Source: a bacterium (GTDB lineage: Bacteria; Armatimonadota; Fimbriimonadia; Fimbriimonadales; Fimbriimonadaceae). Taken from it: a DNA stretch of 64,000 nucleotides. The translations under genes and the position numbers were made by a program. This document shows, in pieces, positions 14,107 to 37,568 of the stretch (the first letter of the stretch is position 1; each line of letters starts with the position of its first letter). The DNA is taken from NCBI GenBank assembly GCA_027485645.1, contig JAIXQR010000007.1, forward strand, positions 558,001-622,000. The letters are read 5' to 3'. The notes beneath the pieces were generated by a model. It searched no databases. It had not been told where the DNA came from and saw only the letters and a program-made list of their open reading frames with translations.

Positions 14107-14970
14107 TTAGTAATCGACCGGGCGGAGGTAGTACTCGCCGATGGCGGTGCTGCTGAGCATCGCGACGGTCGGCAGGCGGCGCTTCCAGTGTGTGCCGTCC
14201 ACCCGCTTGAAAACGAGGGCGACTTCTTCGGGCGCAAAGCCCATCTCGATCAACTTTTCTTGGTTGTATCCCTGCGTCATGAAGTGCAGGAGACGGTCGG
14301 CTTTTCGGTAAGTGATGCCGAAATCCTTCTCGTCGGTTTGGCCCTTGATGAGGTCGGCCGTAGCGGGCTTGTTGATGATCTCTCCCGGTACGCCCAGCTC
14401 TTCGGCCAACTGCCACACCTGGGTCTTGAACAAGTCGCCGAGTGGATTGATGGGCGGGCTGTCATCTGCGTGCCACGTGAAGTAGCCAAACAGCCGTTCG
14501 CTCTTGTTCCCCGTGCCGATCGGGAGTCCGCCAACCTTTGCGCTTTGGTCAAAGATGGTGATCATTCGGCAGCGTGCGCACACGTTGCCGAGTCGGCTCG
14601 CGCTTATTTCCGGCTCGAAGTTTGAAATGTAGCCGTCGACCATCGCGGTGATTTCGATGGTTCGGACGTTGATACCAAGATCGTCAACGACGAGGTTCGC
14701 GTGGTCAATACTCTCCTGCGACGAGATTTTGTACGGCATTCGGAAGGCGTACACGTGCTCGGGACCGAAGGCACGCGCGCACAGGTAAGCCACGACCGCC
14801 GAGTCGACTCCGCCAGAGAGTCCAAGGACGACGTTCTTGATTCCGCGGCGTTCTAGGACTTCTTCGCGAAGAAACCGAACCAGCCAGTCCGCCAAGATGG
14901 GCGCATTGATCTGCAAATAGTCGTCCTGCTCCGAGTCGAATCGGGCGGTTTTTTGCACAGGAAGCGTCAT
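14107..14970 (-). CDS. nadE: NH3-dependent NAD+ synthetase
   Basis: Last step of NAD biosynthesis: ATP-dependent amidation of deamido-NAD+. The P-loop SGGVDS is at residues 52-57, and the family stretches GTGNKSER, FTWHADDSPPINPLGDLFKTQVW and TADLIKGQTDEKDFG are all present. At 287 aa it is a stand-alone ammonia-dependent enzyme without a glutaminase domain. It ends 2 bp from the terminator of the convergent metalloprotease. No other NAD genes adjoin. Confidence 0.94.
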   Translation of the reverse strand: MTLPVQKTARFDSEQDDYLQINAPILADWLVRFLREEVLERRGIKNVVLGLSGGVDSAVVAYLCARAFGPEHVYAFRMPYKISSQESIDHANLVVDDLGINVRTIEITAMVDGYISNFEPEISASRLGNVCARCRMITIFDQSAKVGGLPIGTGNKSERLFGYFTWHADDSPPINPLGDLFKTQVWQLAEELGVPGEIINKPATADLIKGQTDEKDFGITYRKADRLLHFMTQGYNQEKLIEMGFAPEEVALVFKRVDGTHWKRRLPTVAMLSSTAIGEYYLRPVDY

Positions 14971-15347: not shown

Positions 15348-15423
15348 GCTCCGGTCGTCTAGCGGTTAGGACATCGCCCTCTCACGGCGAAGGTCGCGGG
15401 TTCGAATCCCGTCCGGAGTACCA
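15348..15423 (+). tRNA. tRNA-Glu (CUC)
   Basis: A 76-nt cloverleaf with encoded CCA. The acceptor stem GCTCCGG pairs with CCGGAGT (G1:U72 wobble), the D arm is GTCTAGCGGTTAGGAC, the anticodon stem TCGCC/GGCGA encloses loop CTCTCAC with anticodon CUC, and the T arm is GCGGGTTCGAATCCCGT. It decodes GAG. The last 18 bases of the gene plus one flanking base are repeated at 16161-16179. Confidence 0.96.
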
Positions 15424-15424
15424 A
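15406..15424 (+). repeat. direct repeat copy 1 (tRNA-Glu 3' end), attL-like
   Basis: The 19-bp sequence ATCCCGTCCGGAGTACCAA covers the end of the T arm, acceptor 3' strand and CCA of tRNA-Glu. An identical copy lies at 16161-16179. tRNA 3' ends are classic tyrosine-integrase attachment sites. Confidence 0.75.
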
Positions 15425-15511
15425 CCTCTTGAATAAAGATTCCTATATCTCCGGAAATCTCGGAAAATCTGGATCGGTGGCTTCCGTACGTTAGTGCTTA
15501 AGGAGAGTCTG

Positions 15512-16126
15512 ATGATGGTGCTTGCGATGTGGGGTGGAACGATTATCCTTGGCGGTGATGAGGCCAAAGAAATCTTCTTCAGGTTCGAGCGGAATCTGTC
15601 CAGACATCGAACTTTAAGCGGTGACCTTGTTGGCAAAGGGCCAGGCGGCGTGACCTACAAGTCAAAGTTCCTGCTTCAGAAACCGAGGTCTTTCCGTATC
15701 ATAGACGGCCAGATCAATATTTATTGCGATGGCAGAGTCCAATTCAACCACCTGGTTTCCGAAAGGGAATATATCAAGAGTAAGATCTCAAAGGGATTGG
15801 GTTCAGGCTTTCCAGCCGCTTTGGACTCATTCTTTGGCTTTCCGACCGGTGCAACTGCACCCTACTTCGTAAAGAAAACGGAGTTCCGAATGCAGAAAGT
15901 TGACGGGCACATGTGTGCAGCCAAGGCCATTCACTTTGAGAGCTTTGGTCGCGACGACCGGATGGTCTTCTATGTCGATCGTACAACAAAACAAATTCTG
16001 GGATGGGATCAGGTTTTCGGCAATACGAAGATGCCTTTCAGGTTCAAGAATCTGCGCTTTGACGTCGACGTTCCAGGAAATGCGTTCGAGTGGAGACCAT
16101 CTACCGGGCTTAAGGAACGGATTTGA
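15512..16126 (+). CDS. secreted LolA-like protein inside the tRNA-Glu repeat interval
   Basis: A 204-aa protein with a hydrophobic signal (MMVLAMWGGTIILGG). The body resembles LolA/LppX-type or DUF2092 beta-barrel half-shell proteins: an initial helix (FFRFERNLSRHRTLSG), repeated beta strands (VTYKSKFLLQKPRSFRIIDG, INIYCDGRVQFN) and a late FYVDRTTKQILGWDQVF strand pair. LolA-like proteins bind lipid or hydrophobic ligands between membranes; no ligand can be inferred here. Start chosen at ATG 15512, 6 nt after AGGAG. It is the only gene between the two tRNA-end repeats and may be mobile cargo. Confidence 0.6.
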   Translation: MMVLAMWGGTIILGGDEAKEIFFRFERNLSRHRTLSGDLVGKGPGGVTYKSKFLLQKPRSFRIIDGQINIYCDGRVQFNHLVSEREYIKSKISKGLGSGFPAALDSFFGFPTGATAPYFVKKTEFRMQKVDGHMCAAKAIHFESFGRDDRMVFYVDRTTKQILGWDQVFGNTKMPFRFKNLRFDVDVPGNAFEWRPSTGLKERI

Positions 16127-16160
16127 AGGCACGGAGCAGGCAAGTACTAGTTCGAAACCT

Positions 16161-16179
16161 ATCCCGTCCGGAGTACCAA
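16161..16179 (+). repeat. direct repeat copy 2 (tRNA-Glu 3' end), attR-like
   Basis: Exact copy of the 19 bp at 15406-15424. TTCGAA also precedes it as in the tRNA T loop, but with four extra bases between, so it is a remnant of a tRNA 3' half rather than a full gene. It marks the right end of a ~755-bp interval. Confidence 0.75.
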
Positions 16180-16201
16180 GCCGCTTCCTTGATTTAATGC
16201 C

Positions 16202-16441
16202 ATGGATCCGAACTTTGCTAGGATGGTCCGAGAGCAAGTCGCTGGTTACCGTGCGGCCAATGAACTCCAACTTGAGGAAAAGCGGCAAAGGTCTCCGCAA
16301 GAACGCCTTAGGCTAGCGCAGGTTTTCCTCAATCGTCTAGCCGATATGGATCGATTGCCGGTCAATCACGATAAGGAAATCTATCACTCCAAGTGGCAGC
16401 TTTTGAGGGAGAAGTGGCTTGAAAGATACGCCGAATCTTGA
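16202..16441 (+). CDS. small helical protein upstream of a nucleotidyltransferase, possible antitoxin
   Basis: A 79-aa, highly charged, all-helical protein (MVREQVAGYRAANELQLEEKRQRS...). It has no membrane segment and no recognised family. Its last 23 bp overlap the TTG start of the nucleotidyltransferase, so the two are translationally coupled. The order small partner then AbiEii/MenT-like nucleotidyltransferase resembles toxin-antitoxin or abortive-infection pairs; that role is an inference from arrangement only. It starts 23 bp after the duplicated tRNA end. Confidence 0.6.
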   Translation: MDPNFARMVREQVAGYRAANELQLEEKRQRSPQERLRLAQVFLNRLADMDRLPVNHDKEIYHSKWQLLREKWLERYAES

Positions 16442-16982
16442 GGGCGCTCTTGAACGATTGGCTGCAGCGGCTAGATCCGTCGGTTTGCCGTTTGCCATCA
16501 TCGGTGGGCTCGCTGTAATTCTTCGGGGATACGATCGAGCCACTCAAGATGTGGATGCGCTCGTGATGCAGCTCGATGAGCACTTGGAAGCATTTGTTCA
16601 AGCAGCTGAGGCACACGGCCTTCATTTCCGAATCTCTAATGGCGTGGAATTTGCCAAACAAAATCGCGTGATCTTGCTCGAAGCACCGGACGGCACAACC
16701 GTTGACGTCTCGATGGGCCTTCTTCCCATAGAATGGGATGTCGTTTGGGCCGCGGAATTTCTGACGGTCGCAGCGGAGCTAACGGTGCCGGTCGTCACGC
16801 CAGAAGACCTTATTATCCTTAAACTCACGGCTGGTCGAAAAAGAGACTACGAAGACGTAACGAACCTCCTCGAGCTCTATCCAGAAATCAACCGCCCCCG
16901 TGTAGCTGCGATAGTCGAGGAGTATGCGGGCTTACTTGAAAGTCCGGAACTCGTGACTAGAATGAAACAACTTCTGGGTTAG
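16419..16982 (+). CDS. nucleotidyltransferase family protein (AbiEii/DUF6036-like)
   Basis: A 187-aa protein with the minimal nucleotidyltransferase signature: FAIIGGLAVILRGYDRATQDVD supplies the GG motif (29-30) and acidic pair D44/D46, and a third acidic position may be in TTVDVSMG (~88-92). The segment PVVTPEDLIILKLTAGRKRDYEDV is typical of DUF6036/AbiEii-type enzymes. Start is TTG at 16419 with AGGGAG about 8 nt upstream. Relatives transfer nucleotides to tRNA or proteins and often act as toxins, but some are housekeeping or orphan proteins. Partner is the overlapping 79-aa protein. Confidence 0.75.
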   Translation: MKDTPNLEGALERLAAAARSVGLPFAIIGGLAVILRGYDRATQDVDALVMQLDEHLEAFVQAAEAHGLHFRISNGVEFAKQNRVILLEAPDGTTVDVSMGLLPIEWDVVWAAEFLTVAAELTVPVVTPEDLIILKLTAGRKRDYEDVTNLLELYPEINRPRVAAIVEEYAGLLESPELVTRMKQLLG

Positions 16983-17056
16983 AGTGCAAACGAGGACTGG
17001 AATCTGAAAAGGACCATCGCAGAAAAATCCTAAAAACGCGCTCAATAAAGGCACCG

Positions 17057-17905
17057 ATGCAAATCCCCCGTAGCTTCCCTTTCAAAGCCGCGATCCTAGG
17101 CACATCGATTCTCCTCACGGCAGGAGCTTCGGCTTGCACCATCATCTTTGCCTTTCGTGGCGGGAGCGTTTTTGCGGCGGGCAATGAGGACGAGGTTATC
17201 CGGCCGCAGCTTGCTAGCCACTACGTCCGGTTTGAGCCCGCGAACAAAGAGAAAGGCACGCTCGGCTACAAAAACAACCCATTCTCCGACGAATCCGCGA
17301 TGAACGAGGCGGGGCTGTTTTATGACTTCAATGCCCTAGAGCCGCTCCAAACTCCGCGCGAGGGAAAGCCGAAGGGGAGTTTCTCCACGATCAACCAGAT
17401 GCTCGTGAAATGTAAAACGGTGGCCGAAGCGGTCAGCTTCCTCGAGTCCGTCGACCTGCCTCAAATAAGCGGAGCGCAATTGCTTATAGGAGACGCAACC
17501 GGGGCTTCCGCCATCGTCGAGCGACATGCCACCACCTGGCGAGCCAAAAACCAGGACTTCCAGATCGGGACGAATTTCCGAACCAGCACGACTCCCGAAT
17601 CCAAGATCACCTGCGAGCGATTCAAACTCTGCAACGCGACCCTGTCGGCAAAGCAATCGGTTTCCTTGATCGATATGGCGGCGATGCTCCGAAAAACCGC
17701 GGCCGCTGCACACGGCATTAGAACATGGTACTCCCTTGTTTGCGATCTCAAAAAGGGGGACGTTTATCTCAGCGTCAAAGGCGACTTCAGCAAGACCATC
17801 AAGCTAAACCTGCAAACCGAACTCAAAATGGGTTCTCGGCGCCTTGATATGGAAGAATTGGTCGCCACCGCCAAGACCCATCTCGATTGGGGAGGGCCAA
17901 AATAG
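17057..17905 (+). CDS. secreted linear amide C-N hydrolase (Ntn/choloylglycine hydrolase-like)
   Basis: A 282-aa protein with a signal peptide ending TAGASA, directly before Cys27 (CTIIFAFRGG). Processing would expose Cys as the N-terminal nucleophile, as in Ntn hydrolases of the choloylglycine/penicillin V acylase superfamily. The conserved GNEDE and a later MNEAGLFYDFNAL segment support the family. Substrate unknown: amide bonds of acylated amino compounds, lactones or peptides are possible. Stands alone. Confidence 0.75.
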   Translation: MQIPRSFPFKAAILGTSILLTAGASACTIIFAFRGGSVFAAGNEDEVIRPQLASHYVRFEPANKEKGTLGYKNNPFSDESAMNEAGLFYDFNALEPLQTPREGKPKGSFSTINQMLVKCKTVAEAVSFLESVDLPQISGAQLLIGDATGASAIVERHATTWRAKNQDFQIGTNFRTSTTPESKITCERFKLCNATLSAKQSVSLIDMAAMLRKTAAAAHGIRTWYSLVCDLKKGDVYLSVKGDFSKTIKLNLQTELKMGSRRLDMEELVATAKTHLDWGGPK

Positions 17906-18209
17906 TTGAAACGCCCCTTTTTATAATAACTCTTGAGGGATCCTCAAACGATGAGAAAAATGTGCTCTGGCCACGAAGGGCGCGGCAAGTCTGGCAGTTC
18001 CGATTCGAATGAGTAGTCTGGTTCGCCCCAGATGGGCAACTCGTTGGTGCACCTATGCCTAGCACTCTAAACACATGCCTTGCCTCACGCTCATTCGCCA
18101 ACACTGAGCAGGAGCATCTTGCTCAAACATTTGCGCTGGCTATACTGGGAAAATCTGGAGCCGAAACTCTCTTTTGTAGTGCCCCAATAGTTCGACCCCA
18201 ACGACGATC
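17906..18209. other. intergenic region without recognised gene (304 bp)
   Basis: No convincing coding frame or strong hairpin was found between the Ntn hydrolase and the GH95 gene. The last ~60 bp presumably hold the GH95 promoter, but no clear -35/-10 pair or Shine-Dalgarno was identified. Confidence 0.5.
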
Positions 18210-20429
18210 ATGATGCTGCTTCCGCCCACACTCGACCCAGCGCACACGCTGCTGTTCTCTGCCCCTGCAACGCATTTCACCGAGAGCTGTGCGCTCGGCA
18301 ATGGACGATTAGGGGCGATGGTTTTCGGAGGAGTCCAGCGGGAAAGAATCGTTCTCAACGAATCAACCATGTGGTCTGGTTCCGAGCAGCCTGCTGATCG
18401 TCCCGACGCCTACAAAGCGCTCCCCGAAATTCGCAGGTTGCTTCTAGCGGGCGATAACGCAAAGGCTCAGGCGCTGTTGCAGAAGGAGTTCGTTTGCCAG
18501 GGGCCAGGCTCAGGGTTCGCCAATGGAAAGGAGATTCCGTTCGGTTGCTACCAGGTTTTCGGCGACCTGTCGCTCGATTTCGGCTCGGCCAGCTTTCAAA
18601 AGTATCAACGCACTTTAGATCTGGATAAGGCAATGGCGGTCACCGAGTACGAACAAGCCGGCGTCCGATTCCGGCGCGAGAGCTTTGTGTCTGCTCCGGC
18701 CCAAGCCATCGTTTACCGCCTGACTGCAAACCGCCGAGGCGCGATTAGCTTCGCGGCCTCACTCAGCCGTCCTGAGCGCTCTGCAGTCTCAAATGAAGGT
18801 ACTGACTTAGTCATTCGTGGAGCCCTGAGTAGCGGCGTTTCCAATCAGCTTGGTGTGCAGTACGAGGGTCGGGTTCGCGCGATCGCTTCTGGAGGCACAA
18901 CGAGATTCAAAGATGGTCAACTTTTGGTAGCAGGAGCGGACTCGGTCACCCTCATTTTCTCTGCTGGCACATCCATGTTTGACCCAGGTTTCGCATCGCG
19001 GGCGAAGCTTAACGTGGAGTCGGCGGCCAAACTGCCATACCCTTCTTTGCGGAGTGCCCATTTTCGGGATCACCAAAGCTTCTATCGCAGGAGCGCCCTC
19101 ACACTGCCCTTCGGCCCTTCTTCCCGCAAGCCGACATTTGAGCGATTGATGGCGCAGGCCGCAGGAGAGTCCGATCCTTCACTTTCGGCACTGGCTTTCC
19201 ATTTCGGCCGCTACCTCCTAATCAGCAGTTCTCGACCGAATAGCCCTCTCCCGGCCAATCTGCAAGGACTGTGGGCGGAAGAGTTGCACACCCCATGGAA
19301 TGGCGATTTCCATGTTGACATTAACCTTCAAATGAACTATTGGCCCGCCGAAACGACCGGGCTAGGCGACTGCACGAAACCGCTATTGAATTTTCTAAAG
19401 CGGCTTTCCGTGAACGGCCGAAAGACGGCGAAGGCGTACTACAACTCGACCGGTTGGGTGTCGCATGTCATCACAAACCCGTGGTTGTTCACATCGCCTG
19501 GTGAAAGTGCCGAGTGGGGATCAACTTGTACTAGCGCCGCCTGGCTTTGCCAGCACATCTGGGAGAGATTTTTATTCAGTGGCGACGTTCAAGAGCTTCG
19601 AGACATGTACCCTGTTTTCAAGGGTGCAGCTCAATTCTTGTTCGATATCCTCATTGAGGAGCCGAGGAAGGGGTGGCTCGTAACGGCACCTTCCAACTCA
19701 CCAGAAAATCTATATCGCATATCAGGCTCAAGTCCGTTAGCTACGGCAATGGGTCCCACGCACGACATGCAGATTGCACGAGAAATTTTCGGTAATACGA
19801 TCTCAGCGTCAAAAATTCTTGGCGTAGACGAAGAATTTCGGGAACGGCTCAGTGCGGCCCGCACACGCTTGGCACCGCACCAAATTGGACTGGATGGACG
19901 CCTCCAGGAGTGGCTCGAACCTTATGAAGAAGTCGAACCTCAGCACCGTCACGTTTCTCACCTCTATGGGCTATTCCCTTCGAATCAGATCACTCCCAAG
20001 GACACTCCCGATCTGGCCGTTGCCGCAAAGAAGACTCTAGAGCGCCGTGGAGATGGAGGAACTGGATGGTCGTTGGCTTGGAAAGTGAGTTTCTGGGCGA
20101 GGCTGCTTGAGGGAGATCGCGCCCATAAACTCCTCCTTAATTTCATGAATCCAACCGCAGTTAATGACTCAAAAATTCAACACGGACCCGGCGTTTATTC
20201 AAACCTCTTCTGTGCATGCCCGCCTTTTCAAATTGATGGCAACTTTGGCGTGACGGCCGGAATCGCCGAGATGCTGGTGCAGAGCCATACAGGTGAAATC
20301 CAACTCCTACCCGGCCTACCTCGAGCATGGGCAGCCAACGGCTCCGTCCGCGGACTGCGGGCCAGAGGCGGCAAGACGGTCGACATCGTTTGGAAGGACG
20401 GGAAGGTTGTTAGGAGCCGAATCCGATGA
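18210..20429 (+). CDS. glycoside hydrolase family 95 (alpha-L-fucosidase / alpha-L-galactosidase)
   Basis: A 739-aa inverting glycosidase. The N-terminal GH95 domain signature is [17 protein letters not shown] ... LNESTMWSG. The catalytic alpha/alpha barrel has [16 protein letters not shown] and [13 protein letters not shown], and the end has [14 protein letters not shown] and LLPGLP. GH95 enzymes remove alpha-1,2-linked L-fucose or L-galactose; the latter activity acts on rhamnogalacturonan II. No clear signal peptide. Its stop overlaps the ATG of the GH140-like gene (ATGA), so they form an operon. Confidence 0.92.
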
Positions 20430-21754
20430 AACTCATATCCACCATCTCTCTGGTTGCTCTCGCGTGCGTTTCTGGAGCAGAGCTCAAGCCCATTAGAGTC
20501 AGCTCGGACCGACGTAATTTTGTGACGTCCGATGGCAAGCCATTCTTTTGGCTTGCTGATACCGGCTGGACGATGACGACGCGTCTTACATTTGCTGAAA
20601 TCGACGAGTATCTGGCCGACCGCAAAGGTAAAGGGTTCAACGTAATTCAGCTCATCCTTGTGCCATGGGACGCACGCCGCAATGGAAACCTAAGTGGCGA
20701 AAGGCCGTACTTGAATGACGATATGGCTATGCCAAATCCGCGGTACTTTGACCATGTCGAGAAGGTCCTGGATCGGATTGTTAGTAAAGGGTTTTATCCC
20801 GCGGTTGTGCCCTTCTGGCTTTCTGGTCTTCCGGAACCTGGCCCCGATGAAGTTGCGAAGCACCAAGCTTATGCGCGCTACCTTGGGAAAAGGTTTGGTA
20901 AGCGCCAAATGTTCTGGTTGCTCGGTGCCGACCGTTGGCCGAACGGTTGGGCCGATGTAATTCGCGCCTTTGCCTTCGAACTCGAAAAAAGTTCCGGTCG
21001 GCCTGACCAGTTGATGACACATCATCCGGCCGGCGGCCAGACTTCCTCTCGCTTCTTCCATGAGGAGCGATGGCTCGATTTCAACATGATTCAGTCGGGG
21101 CACAATGCAGACCTTCCGGCATATCGCCTTACATTGGGAGACTACGAGAAAACCCCGATCAAACCGGTGCTGGACGGCGAGGCAGCGTACGAAAACATCA
21201 CCAATGCTCTGCTGCCATACGGACCAAATGTGCGAGTTATAAAGGACTTTGATGTTCGAAGACAGGCATATCAAAGCGTCTTTTCTGGCGCTGCTGGCCA
21301 CACTTATGGCGCTTGCGAAGTTTACGAATTCCACCACGATGGCGCTGGCAAGGCACATTGGACGATTGGCATCCATTGGCGGGAAGCGATGAAGTTGCCA
21401 GGGTCCCGGCAGATGGGGCACATGCGACGGCTCATCGAATCGCACTCTCCTTCGACTCGCACACCCGAACTCGGACTGATTGCCTCGCCTAATCCGGATT
21501 CTCCCAACGAACATCTTGCCGCGCTAAAGGACCGCGATGGAAACTGGGCAATGATCTACACGCCGACCGGTGATCGGCTTGAAATAGCCGTGAATCGCCT
21601 TCGGAAAAGACCCGTAACTGGTCGCTGGTTTGATCCAAGAAGCGGTGAATATGGGAAGCCATTCCCAGTATCTTCTGGCGATAAAGTTCCGTTTGACCCT
21701 CCGCGAACAAAGGAACAGTTGGACTGGGTGCTGGTCTTAGAAGTCAAGAAATAA
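20426..21754 (+). CDS. DUF4038 apiosidase-like glycoside hydrolase (GH140-like)
   Basis: A 442-aa protein with a signal peptide ([19 protein letters not shown]). The DUF4038 (beta/alpha)8 region starts [20 protein letters not shown] and carries FWLADTGW, a KGFNVIQ strand and [11 protein letters not shown] with a candidate catalytic Glu. A C-terminal beta-sandwich (~360-442) ends with [11 protein letters not shown], as in the putative collagen-binding tail of this family. Characterised GH140 enzymes cleave apiose from rhamnogalacturonan II. Coupled to the GH95 gene upstream, which supports a shared pectin target. Confidence 0.85.
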
Positions 21755-21795
21755 GAGACTTTTGGGCCCTCCTCACCGAAGCCCGCCTGAAAGAA

Positions 21796-22386
21796 CTAGC
21801 CGGAGGTCGAATGCCTCGACCTCACGGTCTTCCTGACCACCCACTGGCTTTTGCCAATTTGGCGGACTTGTTCGAAGCCCTCGTCCAAGAACATTCGAAC
21901 CGTGCCGCCGTGAAGAAATGAACTTGAGGTCTTCACCGCCTCCACATCATACGGGTAAGCCTCGACCGTGCCGCCGCCCAAACGGGCAATTTCTTCTAGC
22001 GCTGCCTTGAGTGCGAGCTTGGCGACTCCGCGTTTGCGATAGCCTTTGCCTACGAAGAAGCACGGCAGTCGCCAGTCTGGAACTTCGTCCAATCCAGCTT
22101 CATAGTTCTTTCGATTCTTGATGTTTGGGAGGTCTTCGGTTCTCCCAAATTGACACCAGCCAAGGGCGATTTCTCCTTCGAACACTAGCGCTGCCTGGGC
22201 GCGGCCTTCCCGAACCAGCCTCTCTTTCGTTTCACGGTATGGCTTGCATTGTCCCTTTGGCCCGGAAGGGTCTAGATGAAAAGCGATGCACCAGCAACCG
22301 CCAAAAATCCCTCCGTTGTCTTCGACCAGCTTTGCAAATGCTGGCCACGTACTTTCGTCAAGCAATCTGGTGCTGAACACGTACAC
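21796..22386 (-). CDS. GNAT family N-acetyltransferase
   Basis: A 196-aa acyltransferase. The acetyl-CoA-binding segment is CFFVGKGYRKRGVAKLALKAAL (R/Q-x-x-G-x-G/A type), preceded by the LVFEGEIALGWCQFG strand and followed by VEAYPYDV and GTVRMFLDEGFEQV. The start is GTG at 22386 or 22380. Substrate is not predictable. Opposite strand to the glycosidase operon and convergent with it. Confidence 0.85.
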   Translation of the reverse strand: MYVFSTRLLDESTWPAFAKLVEDNGGIFGGCWCIAFHLDPSGPKGQCKPYRETKERLVREGRAQAALVFEGEIALGWCQFGRTEDLPNIKNRKNYEAGLDEVPDWRLPCFFVGKGYRKRGVAKLALKAALEEIARLGGGTVEAYPYDVEAVKTSSSFLHGGTVRMFLDEGFEQVRQIGKSQWVVRKTVRSRHSTSG

Positions 22387-32565: not shown

Positions 32566-35346
32566 TTATCTAGAGTTGATCTTGATTTCGATATCGTCGT
32601 TAAATAATGTCGCCCGCGTCATAAGGCGGTTCGTGTAGAGTCCCATGTGAGCGCCGGCGAGGCCTGGCTTTCCCATGTAGGGACCAGCCGAAGCAAGCTT
32701 GCCATCCAGATAGATGCGGACTTCGTTTTTGTTTACGTCCGTCTCCACGCGGACTTGGGTCCACTTCCCGAGAACGAACTCCGGGCCATCGTCAGGCACG
32801 GGATAAAACGTGCTCCTTGAATAGCCTTGGACCTGGTACTTTCCGGGTGATCCAACCAAGTTCACCATCACGGAGGGACGCCACCCTGTTCCTCCGGCCG
32901 GAACGGTCTCGTCGAACAGGGTGACCAGGTTCAGCCAAGGTTTGGTGCGGTAAGGGCCGAGCTCCACAGGATCCAGATCGCTCACCTTGACGTCGAATGT
33001 GACCTTGGAACTGCCGGGTCGGAATCGGTCAAAGGTGATCTCCGGGTGGAGATGAACGCTTTCCGGATCTTCCACCTTGAGATCTGGTGTTAGCCGCCCC
33101 GCGAAAACGAGTCCCCTTTTCGGAACCGCAGGATCTGGCTCGTAACCGTAATGCCCAGAGATCAGACGTTGGTTCGAGTTTATAAAGCTCGATTCGCTTG
33201 AACAGTCGCTCCGCCAGACGAAACTTTCCTCCCCCTTCCTCGCGGTTAGGGCCTTCTTTACATAGGCTCCCCAATACGAAGTAGGAGAGTAATCCCAGCC
33301 GGTGATGAGGCAAGGATTAGCGGATGGGTGGAAACTCCAAGCAGTCCAATTCAGTTGGTGCTTCTCGATATACGCCATAACCGCCGGCGCCCATTCTTCG
33401 GTGTAAACGTTCTCATGGGGAGGGTCGCCTTGCTTCCATGGCTTCGTACCCACCTCACCTACGAGTACCGGATGCTTCGCGATAACGGGAGTGACATTTG
33501 CGTCCCAGTCTTTTTTCCAAGGGTAAATGTGCGTGGCATAGACAATGCCGTTACCGGCTTTGTCACTAAGTCCGTGACCATCAAGAACCCCTCGAAGGTC
33601 GTAGGCCCAGTCTAGTCCACCAACAACAACCACATTCTTGGCGCCAGTTGATCTGACGGTGTCGACTAAGGCTTGCATTCCCGGGGAACGGTATGAAACA
33701 CCTTTGCTCGCATCTTCAACTTGCCCACCTTTCTGCCAGATGTCCCAAGAAACGCTATGCGGTTCGTTATAGAGATCGAACAAAACAGCAGGGTTGTTTG
33801 CGTACCGCTTGGCGAAGTCCTTCCAGAACACGATGCTGTTCATGTCCGGCATCTTGTGCTGCCCTACGTTTTGCCCCCACTTGCCCGCGTCAGACCAGTG
33901 CAGGTCAAGAAGGACGTAGCAATTCTTTGCCGAAACTTTCTTTACGATGTTGTCGACGATCTTTCGATACGCCTCACCTTGATCCGCCGCTCGCTTTCCC
34001 TTCTCGTACCCAAACCAGAGGTCTTGGGTAAGCGGGATTCGGATAACGTTCGCTTTCCAATCATCGATCGCGACGTCGATCGACTGCATGACGTTTTCAC
34101 CGGTTGGACTCCAGTCCAAGCTCGGCACATTCACGCCTTGCAAGCGCACAACATTGCCGCTTGAATCTCTCAACTGGTTGCCCACCACGCGTAGCCCTTG
34201 CGCTGCACTTCCGCGATTTTCAACGGCAATGTCGTCGATCAGGAAGCTCCCGCTGACTTTGCCGCTGGGATTTATCCCGAGATCAAGCTGGCTGACGATC
34301 TTGGGATCAAAGCCTTCCGGCTGGACGAGGTCTGCGAGTGGAATGGCGACTTCGTGCCACTGCCCATCCCGGTAGTTCGGAGAGTACAGGGCTATTCGAG
34401 CCTTTGACGTGTGGTGTTCGGGTGTATCGAGCACGTCTCCGTTGCAAAGCAATTGTGCATCGAGATCGCCCGTAGTTCCTTGGGCTTTGATCCAAAAGGT
34501 CAAGTGGGTCATCGAGCGAATGTCTGTGCCGACGTTCGTCCCGGTCTTCCATCCGAACCAGTGGAAGCCGCAGCCGATCCACACGTTCTCATCATCAAAT
34601 TTGAATTCGAGCGCCGTATCGCCGCTGTGCGCCTCACCTGTTTTGGCTGCATAAGTTGACGTTGGTGGGTTTGCCCAGCCGCCGAAACTCTTCGCCGATT
34701 CCCCGTCCCACACCACGACTCTGGAAGCTTGCGGCGGCACTTTTACCGCTGGCTTCGGAGCGGCCACTGTCTTGAATGGTGCGGCCGTCAGCGAAACCTT
34801 GGAAAACCAATATTTCGCGCCCGGAGCGGTGGCCAAGTTCGTGAACGTGATTCGAGCGTTCTTGTCGTCCCAAGGTCCGCTGAAAGCGAACGTTCGCTTC
34901 TCCCACTTAGTGGAGAGGTTGACTTCTGTCGCGGCCCCGTGGTGCTCCCACGGCTCATGATTCTGCATGCAGTTGACGGTGATGACCGTAGGTCGCGCTG
35001 CCTTTGCCCAATAGGTCAGGGTGTACTTCCGACCCTTTTCGATCTTCAGCCCACCTTGGTGTAGTTGAACTTGCCAGGACTGCTCACCTTTGCTTTGGAT
35101 GTTTACTTTGAGGGCGGTCGCACCTCCTGGTCCCTCTTTCGCGACGGTCATAGCGCCCTTGGCGTTGCCAGCTTGCTCGAGCGTCCAGCCCTGCGTTCCT
35201 TTGCTGTAGTCACCATTAACGAGCAACTCAGAAGCGCCTCGCGTCGCGGTATTTGGCTTGACCGTTCTAATCTGCGGAACCGCCGTGCAAGTTACGGCAA
35301 GAGCAATTCCCAGGATGACGAGCGAACGTGCGTGAATATTTGACAT
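32566..35346 (-). CDS. secreted multidomain GH5 cellulase-like enzyme with carbohydrate-binding modules
   Basis: About 926 aa. Domain order: signal peptide (SLVILGIALAVTCTA), CBM4/9-like jelly roll (~45-190), a second galactose-binding/CBM11-like domain (~210-375), a GH5 barrel (~385-700) with the acid/base Glu in DLYNEPH (~525) and nucleophile in LVGEVGTK (~630), and a C-terminal LamG-like sandwich (~740-926). Likely cleaves beta-glucan, mannan or related plant glycans outside the cell. An upstream GTG (35358) overlapping the lacI stop is an alternative start. Sits directly after a LacI regulator, which probably controls it. Confidence 0.9.
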   Translation of the reverse strand: MSNIHARSLVILGIALAVTCTAVPQIRTVKPNTATRGASELLVNGDYSKGTQGWTLEQAGNAKGAMTVAKEGPGGATALKVNIQSKGEQSWQVQLHQGGLKIEKGRKYTLTYWAKAARPTVITVNCMQNHEPWEHHGAATEVNLSTKWEKRTFAFSGPWDDKNARITFTNLATAPGAKYWFSKVSLTAAPFKTVAAPKPAVKVPPQASRVVVWDGESAKSFGGWANPPTSTYAAKTGEAHSGDTALEFKFDDENVWIGCGFHWFGWKTGTNVGTDIRSMTHLTFWIKAQGTTGDLDAQLLCNGDVLDTPEHHTSKARIALYSPNYRDGQWHEVAIPLADLVQPEGFDPKIVSQLDLGINPSGKVSGSFLIDDIAVENRGSAAQGLRVVGNQLRDSSGNVVRLQGVNVPSLDWSPTGENVMQSIDVAIDDWKANVIRIPLTQDLWFGYEKGKRAADQGEAYRKIVDNIVKKVSAKNCYVLLDLHWSDAGKWGQNVGQHKMPDMNSIVFWKDFAKRYANNPAVLFDLYNEPHSVSWDIWQKGGQVEDASKGVSYRSPGMQALVDTVRSTGAKNVVVVGGLDWAYDLRGVLDGHGLSDKAGNGIVYATHIYPWKKDWDANVTPVIAKHPVLVGEVGTKPWKQGDPPHENVYTEEWAPAVMAYIEKHQLNWTAWSFHPSANPCLITGWDYSPTSYWGAYVKKALTARKGEESFVWRSDCSSESSFINSNQRLISGHYGYEPDPAVPKRGLVFAGRLTPDLKVEDPESVHLHPEITFDRFRPGSSKVTFDVKVSDLDPVELGPYRTKPWLNLVTLFDETVPAGGTGWRPSVMVNLVGSPGKYQVQGYSRSTFYPVPDDGPEFVLGKWTQVRVETDVNKNEVRIYLDGKLASAGPYMGKPGLAGAHMGLYTNRLMTRATLFNDDIEIKINSR

Positions 35347-35357
35347 GGGTTGACTCA

Positions 35358-36395
35358 CTAGATGCCGGCCGAAGCGAAACCTCGGGTTCTTGGCGGAGCG
35401 CTCGATGCGCGGACGATAAGCTTTGGGGTGACGATGATGGACTGCGGAGCGGGTTCGGGATGCGTTCCCTGAATTCGAGCCACTAGAAGGCTGACAAAGG
35501 CCGAAGCCAGCGGGGAAATGTGCGCACCTACGGTTGTCAACCGCGGGGAAAGGTACGTGGCGAGGTCAAGATCATCGAATCCGACCACGGTCATTTCGCT
35601 CGGAATCGACACGCCCGCTTCCTCCAACTGCCGGTAGACGACCGCAGCAAGGGAGTCTTGATACGCAAAGATCGCGGTCGGAGGATCGGGCAGAGCTAGT
35701 AGTCGCGTCACTCCAAGTCTCACATCCTCTTCGTTCTTCACTTCGATGGACATGGCTGGAGGCAGCGGAATGCCCCTTTCGCGGAGAACGTCTCCGAAAC
35801 CGACCAATCGATCAAAGGCGCCTCGGTGCGGAGCTTTTCCGAGTACGGCAATCCGGGTGTGTCCAAGATCGGCAAGATGACTGGCCAATTCACGACCTCC
35901 CGCAGAGTCGTCTCCCGCCACTAAATCGAGGTGGTCAGAATCCTCCACCCAGCCCATTATCACCACGGGCGTTCCAGAGGCCGTCAAGGCGTTGACCTGA
36001 CTTCTTGCAACGAGGCCACGCTCGCCAGTCACCAGGAGAACACCATCTGCCCGGTTCGCCGAAAGCGAGGCGATGCAGTCACTCTCCGACTCTTGGTCCG
36101 CGGCGCTCAAGTGAAGCTGCAAGCTGTATCCAGCGAGCTTTGCGTGGTCGGCCACCCGTTGGATAAGTTCGGGATAGAACGGATTCGAAACCTCTGGAAC
36201 AACCAGGCCAATCGTCTTCGTGGAGCGGGTCTTGAGGTTCCGAGCAACCTGATTGACCTGGTAACCAGCTTCCCGCGCCAGGTTTTGGATTCGTTCTTTG
36301 GTCGAAGGATTTACAAGGGGGCTGTCTGCAAGCGCCCGAGACACCGTCGAGTGGGAAACGCCAGCCTTTAGCGCAATGTCTTCAAGAGTAACCAA
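35358..36395 (-). CDS. LacI family transcriptional regulator
   Basis: A 345-aa protein. The N-terminal HTH is VTLEDIALKAGVSHSTVSRALA with a hinge helix at VNQVARNLKTRSTKTIG, followed by a periplasmic-binding-protein-like sugar sensor (IGLVVPEVSNPFYPELI ... VGFDDLDLATYLSPRLTTV). TTG start. It is followed immediately by the GH5 gene, so it is presumably a sugar-responsive repressor of its own operon. The upstream region has two 14-bp LacI-type operators in inverted orientation. Confidence 0.92.
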   Translation of the reverse strand: MVTLEDIALKAGVSHSTVSRALADSPLVNPSTKERIQNLAREAGYQVNQVARNLKTRSTKTIGLVVPEVSNPFYPELIQRVADHAKLAGYSLQLHLSAADQESESDCIASLSANRADGVLLVTGERGLVARSQVNALTASGTPVVIMGWVEDSDHLDLVAGDDSAGGRELASHLADLGHTRIAVLGKAPHRGAFDRLVGFGDVLRERGIPLPPAMSIEVKNEEDVRLGVTRLLALPDPPTAIFAYQDSLAAVVYRQLEEAGVSIPSEMTVVGFDDLDLATYLSPRLTTVGAHISPLASAFVSLLVARIQGTHPEPAPQSIIVTPKLIVRASSAPPRTRGFASAGI

Positions 36396-36423
36396 CCCTC
36401 ATTCCCCCTTCTCGGACCTGCTT

Positions 36424-36471
36424 TGCACACGATTGCAGAGATACTACCATCACTCTTTGCAATCGTGTGCA
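36424..36471. promoter_or_regulatory. paired LacI-type operators upstream of the lacI-GH5 operon
   Basis: TGCACACGATTGCA (36424-36437) and its exact reverse complement TGCAATCGTGTGCA (36458-36471), centres 34 bp apart. Each has TGCA arms around a central CG, the typical LacI-family operator form. A TAGTAT -10-like hexamer on the minus strand (36446-36441) lies between them. Binding at both sites would enclose the promoter. Confidence 0.75.
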
Positions 36472-36516
36472 GTCGGGTTCTCTCCAGAAGTTCGCTCGGC
36501 TCTGTTCGTTTGTTGC

Positions 36517-37212
36517 TTACTCTCTGTGCGATTCGGCGATGATTTCGTAGGTCGAGCCTGCTGGCCCAAGGTGACTTTCGAACAGAGCCACCCGTGTTAG
36601 TTGGATCGCGAGCGCGCTCATTGGTAGGAGTGGGATCGACTCCGAGGCTTTTTCCTTGTACCGCGCAAAAGTCACGTGGAACGGCATCGGTCCATGACGT
36701 TGATCACGATACAGACGCACCAGCTCCGGCTCTCCTTGCGCGAGCATAAGCTGGCCCAGAGGTTCGCTCCGAAGGCGGTCGTACAATGACGAAACTCCTT
36801 CCCTCTGGTTTTCATAGTCGGCATAAAAGAAGCTGCCGCGCAAGAGGCGGCGGTTGAGGTGCAGCTCGACGTTTTCAGACAACTCAAAGCCCAACGCGAG
36901 CGCTCCCCTGCCTAATTTGTACGTTTCGCAGGTTAGAGCTTCAAGAGGGTCCCATTGGATACTTCGGACCATCTCTGCCATCCACTGCCGCTTCTCGGCC
37001 GTCACCGATGGGAAGAACGCGATCGTCGAGTGCATTTGACTCGCTTCAACCAGACGCACCGGCTGCCCAGCGTAAGCGCTTTCGGCCCACTGTCTAATCG
37101 ACGCTGTGGACTTCAAATCAATGCAAAAGCCGACGAACAAACGATGGCCAGAAATTGAACCAGTCGGACGGTCGGAAGAATCCACATCAAATTGTAACCG
37201 GGGCCTACTCAT
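36517..37212 (-). CDS. 2H phosphoesterase / 2'-5' RNA ligase-like protein
   Basis: A 231-aa protein with the paired HxT motifs of the 2H superfamily: H61-S-T in QMHSTIAFFP and H179-V-T in PFHVTFARYK. The core begins GHRLFVGFCIDL, as in ThpR/LigT proteins that open 2',3'-cyclic phosphates or join RNA 2'-5'. The start at ATG 37212 is preferred because upstream codons (to 37302) do not match the fold and AGGA lies before 37212. Exact substrate unknown. Confidence 0.75.
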   Translation of the reverse strand: MSRPRLQFDVDSSDRPTGSISGHRLFVGFCIDLKSTASIRQWAESAYAGQPVRLVEASQMHSTIAFFPSVTAEKRQWMAEMVRSIQWDPLEALTCETYKLGRGALALGFELSENVELHLNRRLLRGSFFYADYENQREGVSSLYDRLRSEPLGQLMLAQGEPELVRLYRDQRHGPMPFHVTFARYKEKASESIPLLPMSALAIQLTRVALFESHLGPAGSTYEIIAESHRE

Positions 37213-37568
37213 GCATTCCTGTCTAACATGGTCAAAAGCAGTGGAGTATTCCTCCCAACTAGAGAGCCTTCGAATCGCGACGTTGACCGGCACTACGCTC
37301 ATCCCAAACGATTGGCCAAGCCAACCTACCGATGTCTTTCACCTCCAGCTAATACTTTTATCGAGCAAGAATCGCGTCTTCGGTTTGCAGTCAGTGGAAT
37401 CGTGTCTGAGCCACGGTCGGCAAAATGTTTGGGGCCGTTGTCTAGAGGATCAGCCTGTCAATGCCGGTCTGATCTTCATGTTAAGAAGGCGGTATCGCTT
37501 CTGTTGAAACTTGGGAAGATCTGGCCGGGATTGCGGTTCCCGGCCGGAAAAAAGACGCCGACCCCGGA
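37213..37568. other. intergenic region (356 bp) with a stem-loop
   Basis: Lies between the 2H phosphoesterase start and the DUF4397 stop, both on the minus strand. The only structure seen is an 8-bp perfect stem GGCCGGGA/TCCCGGCC (37523-37530 and 37538-37545), just past the DUF4397 stop. It has no T-run after it on the minus strand, so terminator function is uncertain. Confidence 0.4.

Follow-up and report, generated by a model that had tools for sequence, protein, structure and literature searches.

A single-gene unit bounded by copies of the tRNA-Glu 3' end in a Fimbriimonadaceae genome

A tRNA-Glu gene in a freshwater, Fimbriimonas-type member of the Fimbriimonadaceae (genome G000, 3.19 Mb) is followed by one protein-coding gene and then by a second copy of the 3' end of the tRNA, which raises the question of whether the gene arrived as a small mobile unit, is what is left of a larger island, or has been inherited vertically beside the tRNA. 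The locus lies in a stretch of 64,000 nucleotides that was analysed as a whole and is referred to here as the window.

The intact tRNA-Glu(CTC), the putative integration target, was located at positions 15348 to 15423 of the forward strand using ARAGORN. A 19-bp sequence, ATCCCGTCCGGAGTACCAA, occupies positions 15406 to 15424 at the end of this gene (attL, the tRNA-side core) and recurs on the same strand at positions 16161 to 16179 (attR, the distal core, read as a displaced tRNA tail). The two copies are 100% identical and 755 bp apart, in agreement with the original prediction of an exactly repeated tRNA-Glu 3' end with CCA. The repeat starts in the T-loop and takes in the final 18 bases of the tRNA, encoded CCA included, and the A that follows; it recurs exactly at only one other place in the genome, C1:770193, where it forms the 3' end of tRNA-Glu(TTC). 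The TTCGAA said to precede both copies was found near both, with a qualification for each: in the tRNA, TTCGA runs directly into the ATCCC of the repeat, and the second copy reads TTCGAAACCT followed by ATCCC, so that TTCGAA is present and ends 4 bp ahead of the repeat. Approximately 43 tRNAs of G000 were scanned for copies of their tails up to 19 kb downstream. Only tRNA-Glu(CTC) had a copied 3' end, of 19 bp; the next best match was 14 bp, and matches reached at most 12 bp in reversed controls and at most 11 bp on the opposite strand, so the repeat is not a chance match. Such a pairing of an intact tRNA with a displaced, like-oriented 3' fragment characterises a tDNA island.

The unit measures approximately 755 bp, namely one 19-bp core and a 736-bp cargo segment (15425 to 16160, forward strand), which G003, the closest relative compared, shares through position 16179. 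As originally proposed, the segment contains one ORF of substance and no integrase; it therefore lacks the internal integrase gene that is part of a tDNA island in the Islander sense. The ORF can be read from a GTG at 15494, and the likelier start, judged from the sequence, is an ATG at 15512 behind AAGGAG, which gives a product of about 204 amino acids with the stop codon ending at 16126. The compositional deviation was strong for GC content (48.8% against 56.5%, lower than in 98% of equal-sized genome segments) and only mild for codon usage.

Description of the product as LolA-like was borne out weakly: the protein itself had no Pfam match, and sub-threshold matches to DUF2092 and LolA_like appeared when its homologs were aligned, with distant family homologs being 20-26% identical. 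A profile search against solved structures returned one match (E 0.26), and an AlphaFold2 model built from three sequences had a pLDDT of 31.8. A periplasmic role resembling that of a lipoprotein carrier would be a guess from these resemblances. Within the genus, homologs were found in G003 (89% identity) and G011 (64%). PADLOC returned no match for the cargo, for the small ORF to the right of the unit or for the nucleotidyltransferase of the window, and viral contigs lacked any relative of the cargo, any relative of the recombinases described below and any copy of the attR context. The motif AAACCT followed by the tail occurs in G000 and G003 only, among 113 genomes of the order.

The same gene is found at the same place in G003, an arrangement that could initially suggest vertical inheritance. 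Window ORFs were matched to the G003 contig and synonymous divergence was calculated, with the values for the cargo and the nearest left-flank genes obtained by the NG86 method. The cargo had the lowest dS in the window, 0.07 (9.3 differences at 139 synonymous sites), compared with a median of 1.11 for 42 ORF pairs and values of 0.61-0.69 for the nearest left-flank genes; the next-lowest value, 0.17, belongs to a 43-amino-acid partial match. By dS, the cargo copies of G000 and G003 are thus at least about tenfold younger than their neighbours. The gene is not intrinsically frozen at synonymous sites, because its dS to the G011 homolog is approximately 2.5 (dN 0.25). Its dN/dS was 0.75 between G000 and G003 and approximately 0.10 to G011, which shows that constraint has been weak since the G000 and G003 copies split. 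One observation counts against reading the unit as a mobile cassette: its non-coding parts differ from those of G003 by 13-15%, more than the gene does, over few sites. Elsewhere in the window, three adjacent genes (32566 to 37302) have dS values of 0.33-0.46 to G003, where the window median is 1.1; they may be a block that the two lineages exchanged.

The right boundary of the shared segment is exact. Similarity between G000 and G003 stops at base 16179, exactly where the second repeat ends, and the DNA beyond is unrelated: G003 continues with a trypsin-like protease and other genes, and G000 with a small ORF, a nucleotidyltransferase and carbohydrate genes. Together, the low dS and the exact right end are evidence that the segment moved horizontally, with its ends at the repeats. 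The genome-specific DNA of G000 extends from 16180 to 21795 (forward strand), carries nucleotidyltransferase, AAT-like, GH95 and apiosidase-like genes, and consists of ORFs unmatched in the G003 contig. Homology to G003 restarts near 21828, within a GNAT-like gene (21796 to 22386, reverse strand) that forms the conserved right flank. On the left, the conserved flank is an NAD synthase gene (14107 to 14970, reverse strand; Pfam NAD_synthase), which lies near tRNA-Glu in several relatives too. No third tail copy was found beyond the right end of the unit, and the segments adjoining it on that side therefore cannot be bounded.

A candidate for the empty tRNA-Glu site that the original prediction called for was found in G015. 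Directly behind attR, the window carries the small ORF and a DUF6036/AbiEii-like nucleotidyltransferase (16202 to 16982, forward strand; Pfam), and joining the window flanks without the unit yields an intact tRNA followed by this pair. In G015 such a pair lies directly behind tRNA-Glu, approximately 23 nt past the CCA. Its nucleotidyltransferase is only about 39% identical to that of the window, so G015 is an analogue of the empty site and not the same strain minus the unit.

Across the genus, the unit was present at the tRNA in two of 20 genomes; the outcome that would have spoken against an inserted element, all close relatives carrying the gene in the same vertical order, is therefore not what is seen. 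Each member was also searched with its own tRNA-Glu tail (18 nt, up to three mismatches, up to 6 kb). This gave 12 further copies on the same strand in 180 kb of downstream sequence, and none upstream or on the opposite strand; two of the 12 (in G016 and G001) carry three mismatches and could include chance matches. In G006, G012 and G013 the copies match variant bases of the tRNA of the host, which is what displacement of the old tail to the distal position would predict. Other cargo closed by the same tail, also foreseen, was found in G012 and G002. G012 (L198:1289-2864) has one gene of the beta-lactamase fold between tRNA-Glu and an exact 18-nt tail 1.5 kb on. In G002, tails lie at 119, 242, 4405, 5486 and 7404 of contig C5, the start of which shares a 149-bp overlap with the end of the contig that carries tRNA-Glu. 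The resulting array (L191:1-9450 and L258) has at least five tail copies and units of approximately 0.1, 4.1, 1.1 and 1.9 kb, some with a single gene such as a 125-amino-acid nucleotidyltransferase, and has the GNAT-like gene on its right. Variable cargo thus lies between repeats of the target RNA 3' end with no integrase of its own, and tRNA-Glu is an accretion hotspot in the genus.

As separate observations, the nucleotidyltransferase of one G002 unit matched PDC-S09 models in PADLOC, and modules of approximately 95 bp, with GGGTGAGAA and then GGTTCGTTAGCGAAGCGCC and many of them ending in the tRNA-Glu tail, were seen just behind tRNA-Glu (L052, L053, L061, L041, L042, L038, L045 and L048). 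At the loci tested Rfam matched nothing but tRNA, leaving the modules without a family; they may be an RNA, a terminator-like repeat or a tiny integrated unit. For the window, we abandoned the idea that all tail copies form a single conserved RNA module, as a covariance model scored the window copy at 13 bits (E 2.1), which is not significant.

The possible source of a recombinase was then considered. G000 has no PF07508 protein and two tyrosine recombinases (310 and 295 amino acids), which appear to be XerC and XerD, judging by their size and by the fact that all relatives have them; no candidate integrase was found in G000 beyond these two, and a search by position found no tyrosine recombinase close to tRNA-Glu. 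Because G000 thus lacks a dedicated integrase, we infer that the unit was mobilised in trans. The Fimbriimonadaceae contain a subfamily of serine recombinases of approximately 520 amino acids with Resolvase, Recombinase and zinc-ribbon domains, found at 24 loci (L202-L225; type L051:3540-5099). At 19 of these loci, the end of the recombinase gene falls within or shortly beyond a tRNA encoded on the other strand (Glu 8, Ala 7, Gln 2, Trp 1 and Cys 1), with overlaps of 12-42 bp except for one of 114 bp in G001, where the gene runs through tRNA-Trp. The overlap is exactly 42 bp in each of the eight tRNA-Glu cases, which encode a C-terminus of the type WYSGxDSNPRxxP. Since their genes overlap tRNA 3' ends, these enzymes are natural helper candidates, and the tRNA-Glu-targeting ones are plausible helpers for the unit.

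No displaced tRNA-Glu tail was found at the far end of the recombinase-bearing elements examined downstream, for which reason the serine recombinase remains a candidate helper. The one clear repeat for such a recombinase was that of an element of approximately 45.5 kb at tRNA-Trp in G001 (C1:130454 to about 176000; L128-L130), a 26-bp direct repeat with one mismatch that includes eight tRNA-Trp bases and 18 beyond. Separately, G013 (L111:1-9000) has a related serine recombinase at the end of a contig; the genes that come after it resemble, by eye, conjugation or relaxation genes, and this locus is possibly an integrative conjugative element. As a lead, the tRNA-targeting serine recombinases are more novel than the small unit.

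The best explanation, to which a probability of about 80% is assigned, is that the unit is a non-autonomous, single-gene integrative cassette, site-specifically inserted at tRNA-Glu and presumably moved in trans. The att-flanked cargo unit of the original prediction gains support from the low dS of the cargo, the break in homology at the repeat and the candidate empty site. Site-specific recombination in the T-loop or T-stem of tRNA-Glu would insert the cassette, the tail carried by the cassette would restore the tRNA, and the old tail would be displaced to the far end. An integrase acting in trans could have moved the cassette, or else a larger element that once occupied the same site and has since disappeared; the best candidate would be a tRNA-Glu-targeting serine recombinase such as those of the relatives. 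The unit would then be one of several units of differing content accreted at tRNA-Glu in the genus, and it may still be mobile today.

The alternative that survives best, though it is rather unlikely, is that the unit is the remnant of a larger autonomous island that has lost its integrase and most of its genes and is now fixed and immobile. Such a history would fit the tail copies of the genus, which vary widely in size and in how far they have decayed, and also the larger serine-recombinase elements at tRNA-Glu in relatives; against it, the same trimmed unit with the same ends occurs in two genomes with differing right-hand DNA, and its dS places the transfer after the species split, so that the small form itself probably moved. 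It is distinctly improbable that DNA was taken up and the gene exchanged by ordinary homologous recombination, with left homology supplied by the tRNA and the repeat unused as a site. The shared tRNA and left flank could recombine, and the lowered-dS block at 32566 to 37302 makes exchange by other means plausible, but the right flanks have no homology past the 19-bp core, the shared block stops on the last core base, and the left-flank genes beside the tRNA keep a dS of approximately 0.6. It is very improbable that a vertically inherited gene lies beside a second copy that is either a tRNA pseudogene or a tail-RNA module of the 95-bp type with a function of its own. Tail-ended modules do recur in G002, G005, G006, G009, G017 and G018, but nearly always the 3' tail alone is copied, always downstream and in direct orientation, the window copy falls short of significance under the covariance model, and neither the low dS of the cargo nor the break exactly at the tail would be explained.

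Under the preferred reading, that of a cassette inserted at tRNA-Glu, a one-gene, att-flanked unit can cross from one species to another and insert exactly at a tRNA. The unit would be a naturally occurring minimal substrate on which integration in trans could be tested, and the locus marks tRNA-Glu as an accretion hotspot within a little-studied phylum. A broader and speculative proposal, which we consider unlikely as it stands, is that the Fimbriimonadaceae possess a cassette system in which the tRNA-Glu 3' end acts like an integron attC, with single-gene units added serially by a tRNA-targeting serine recombinase that acts in trans and has its last codons inside the tRNA gene.

Among known systems, the nearest precedents are the ssrA islands of Dehalococcoides and the additive islands at tRNA-Lys of Ca. 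Methylopumilus. The Dehalococcoides islands stand in tandem behind one RNA gene and are separated by 20-bp repeats of its 3' end, with crossover in the T-loop; a 540-amino-acid serine recombinase, DsiB, is encoded on the reverse strand beside attL in some, 15 of 31 have no integration module, and those bearing vcrABC are approximately 12 kb (PMC3146451). The 19-bp core of the window likewise begins in the T-loop, relatives have comparable tail arrays, and these islands are a close published parallel for the serine recombinases of the family (PMC3146451). The present case differs in its target (tRNA-Glu instead of tmRNA), in the size of the unit (0.75 kb) and in having only a candidate recombinase for the unit. 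Islander tDNA islands have a restored tRNA at one end and a direct-orientation fragment at the other, commonly cross over in the T-stem region and peak in size at approximately 14 and 40 kb, and Islander demands an integrase gene inside the island, of the tyrosine type only (PMC4383910). The restored tRNA-Glu and displaced fragment are shared with these islands, whereas the unit has no integrase. Tycheposons, described for Methylophilaceae, are elements of 4-200 kb with the tyrosine recombinase xerD (PMC10872708); tRNA-sited cargo and modular content are held in common with them, while the unit is 0.75 kb and has no recombinase. Units in the additive flexible island fGI-2 at tRNA-Lys of Ca. 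Methylopumilus are as short as 330 bp (PMC10872708), so the size of the present unit alone is not new. The present case differs from fGI-2 in phylum and tRNA; in addition, the age of the unit was measured against its flanks, and recombinases of the family that sit at the same tRNA are reported. The unit belongs among the integrase-less members of RNA-gene accretion hotspots and is an exceptionally small example of the known tRNA-targeted mobile islands.
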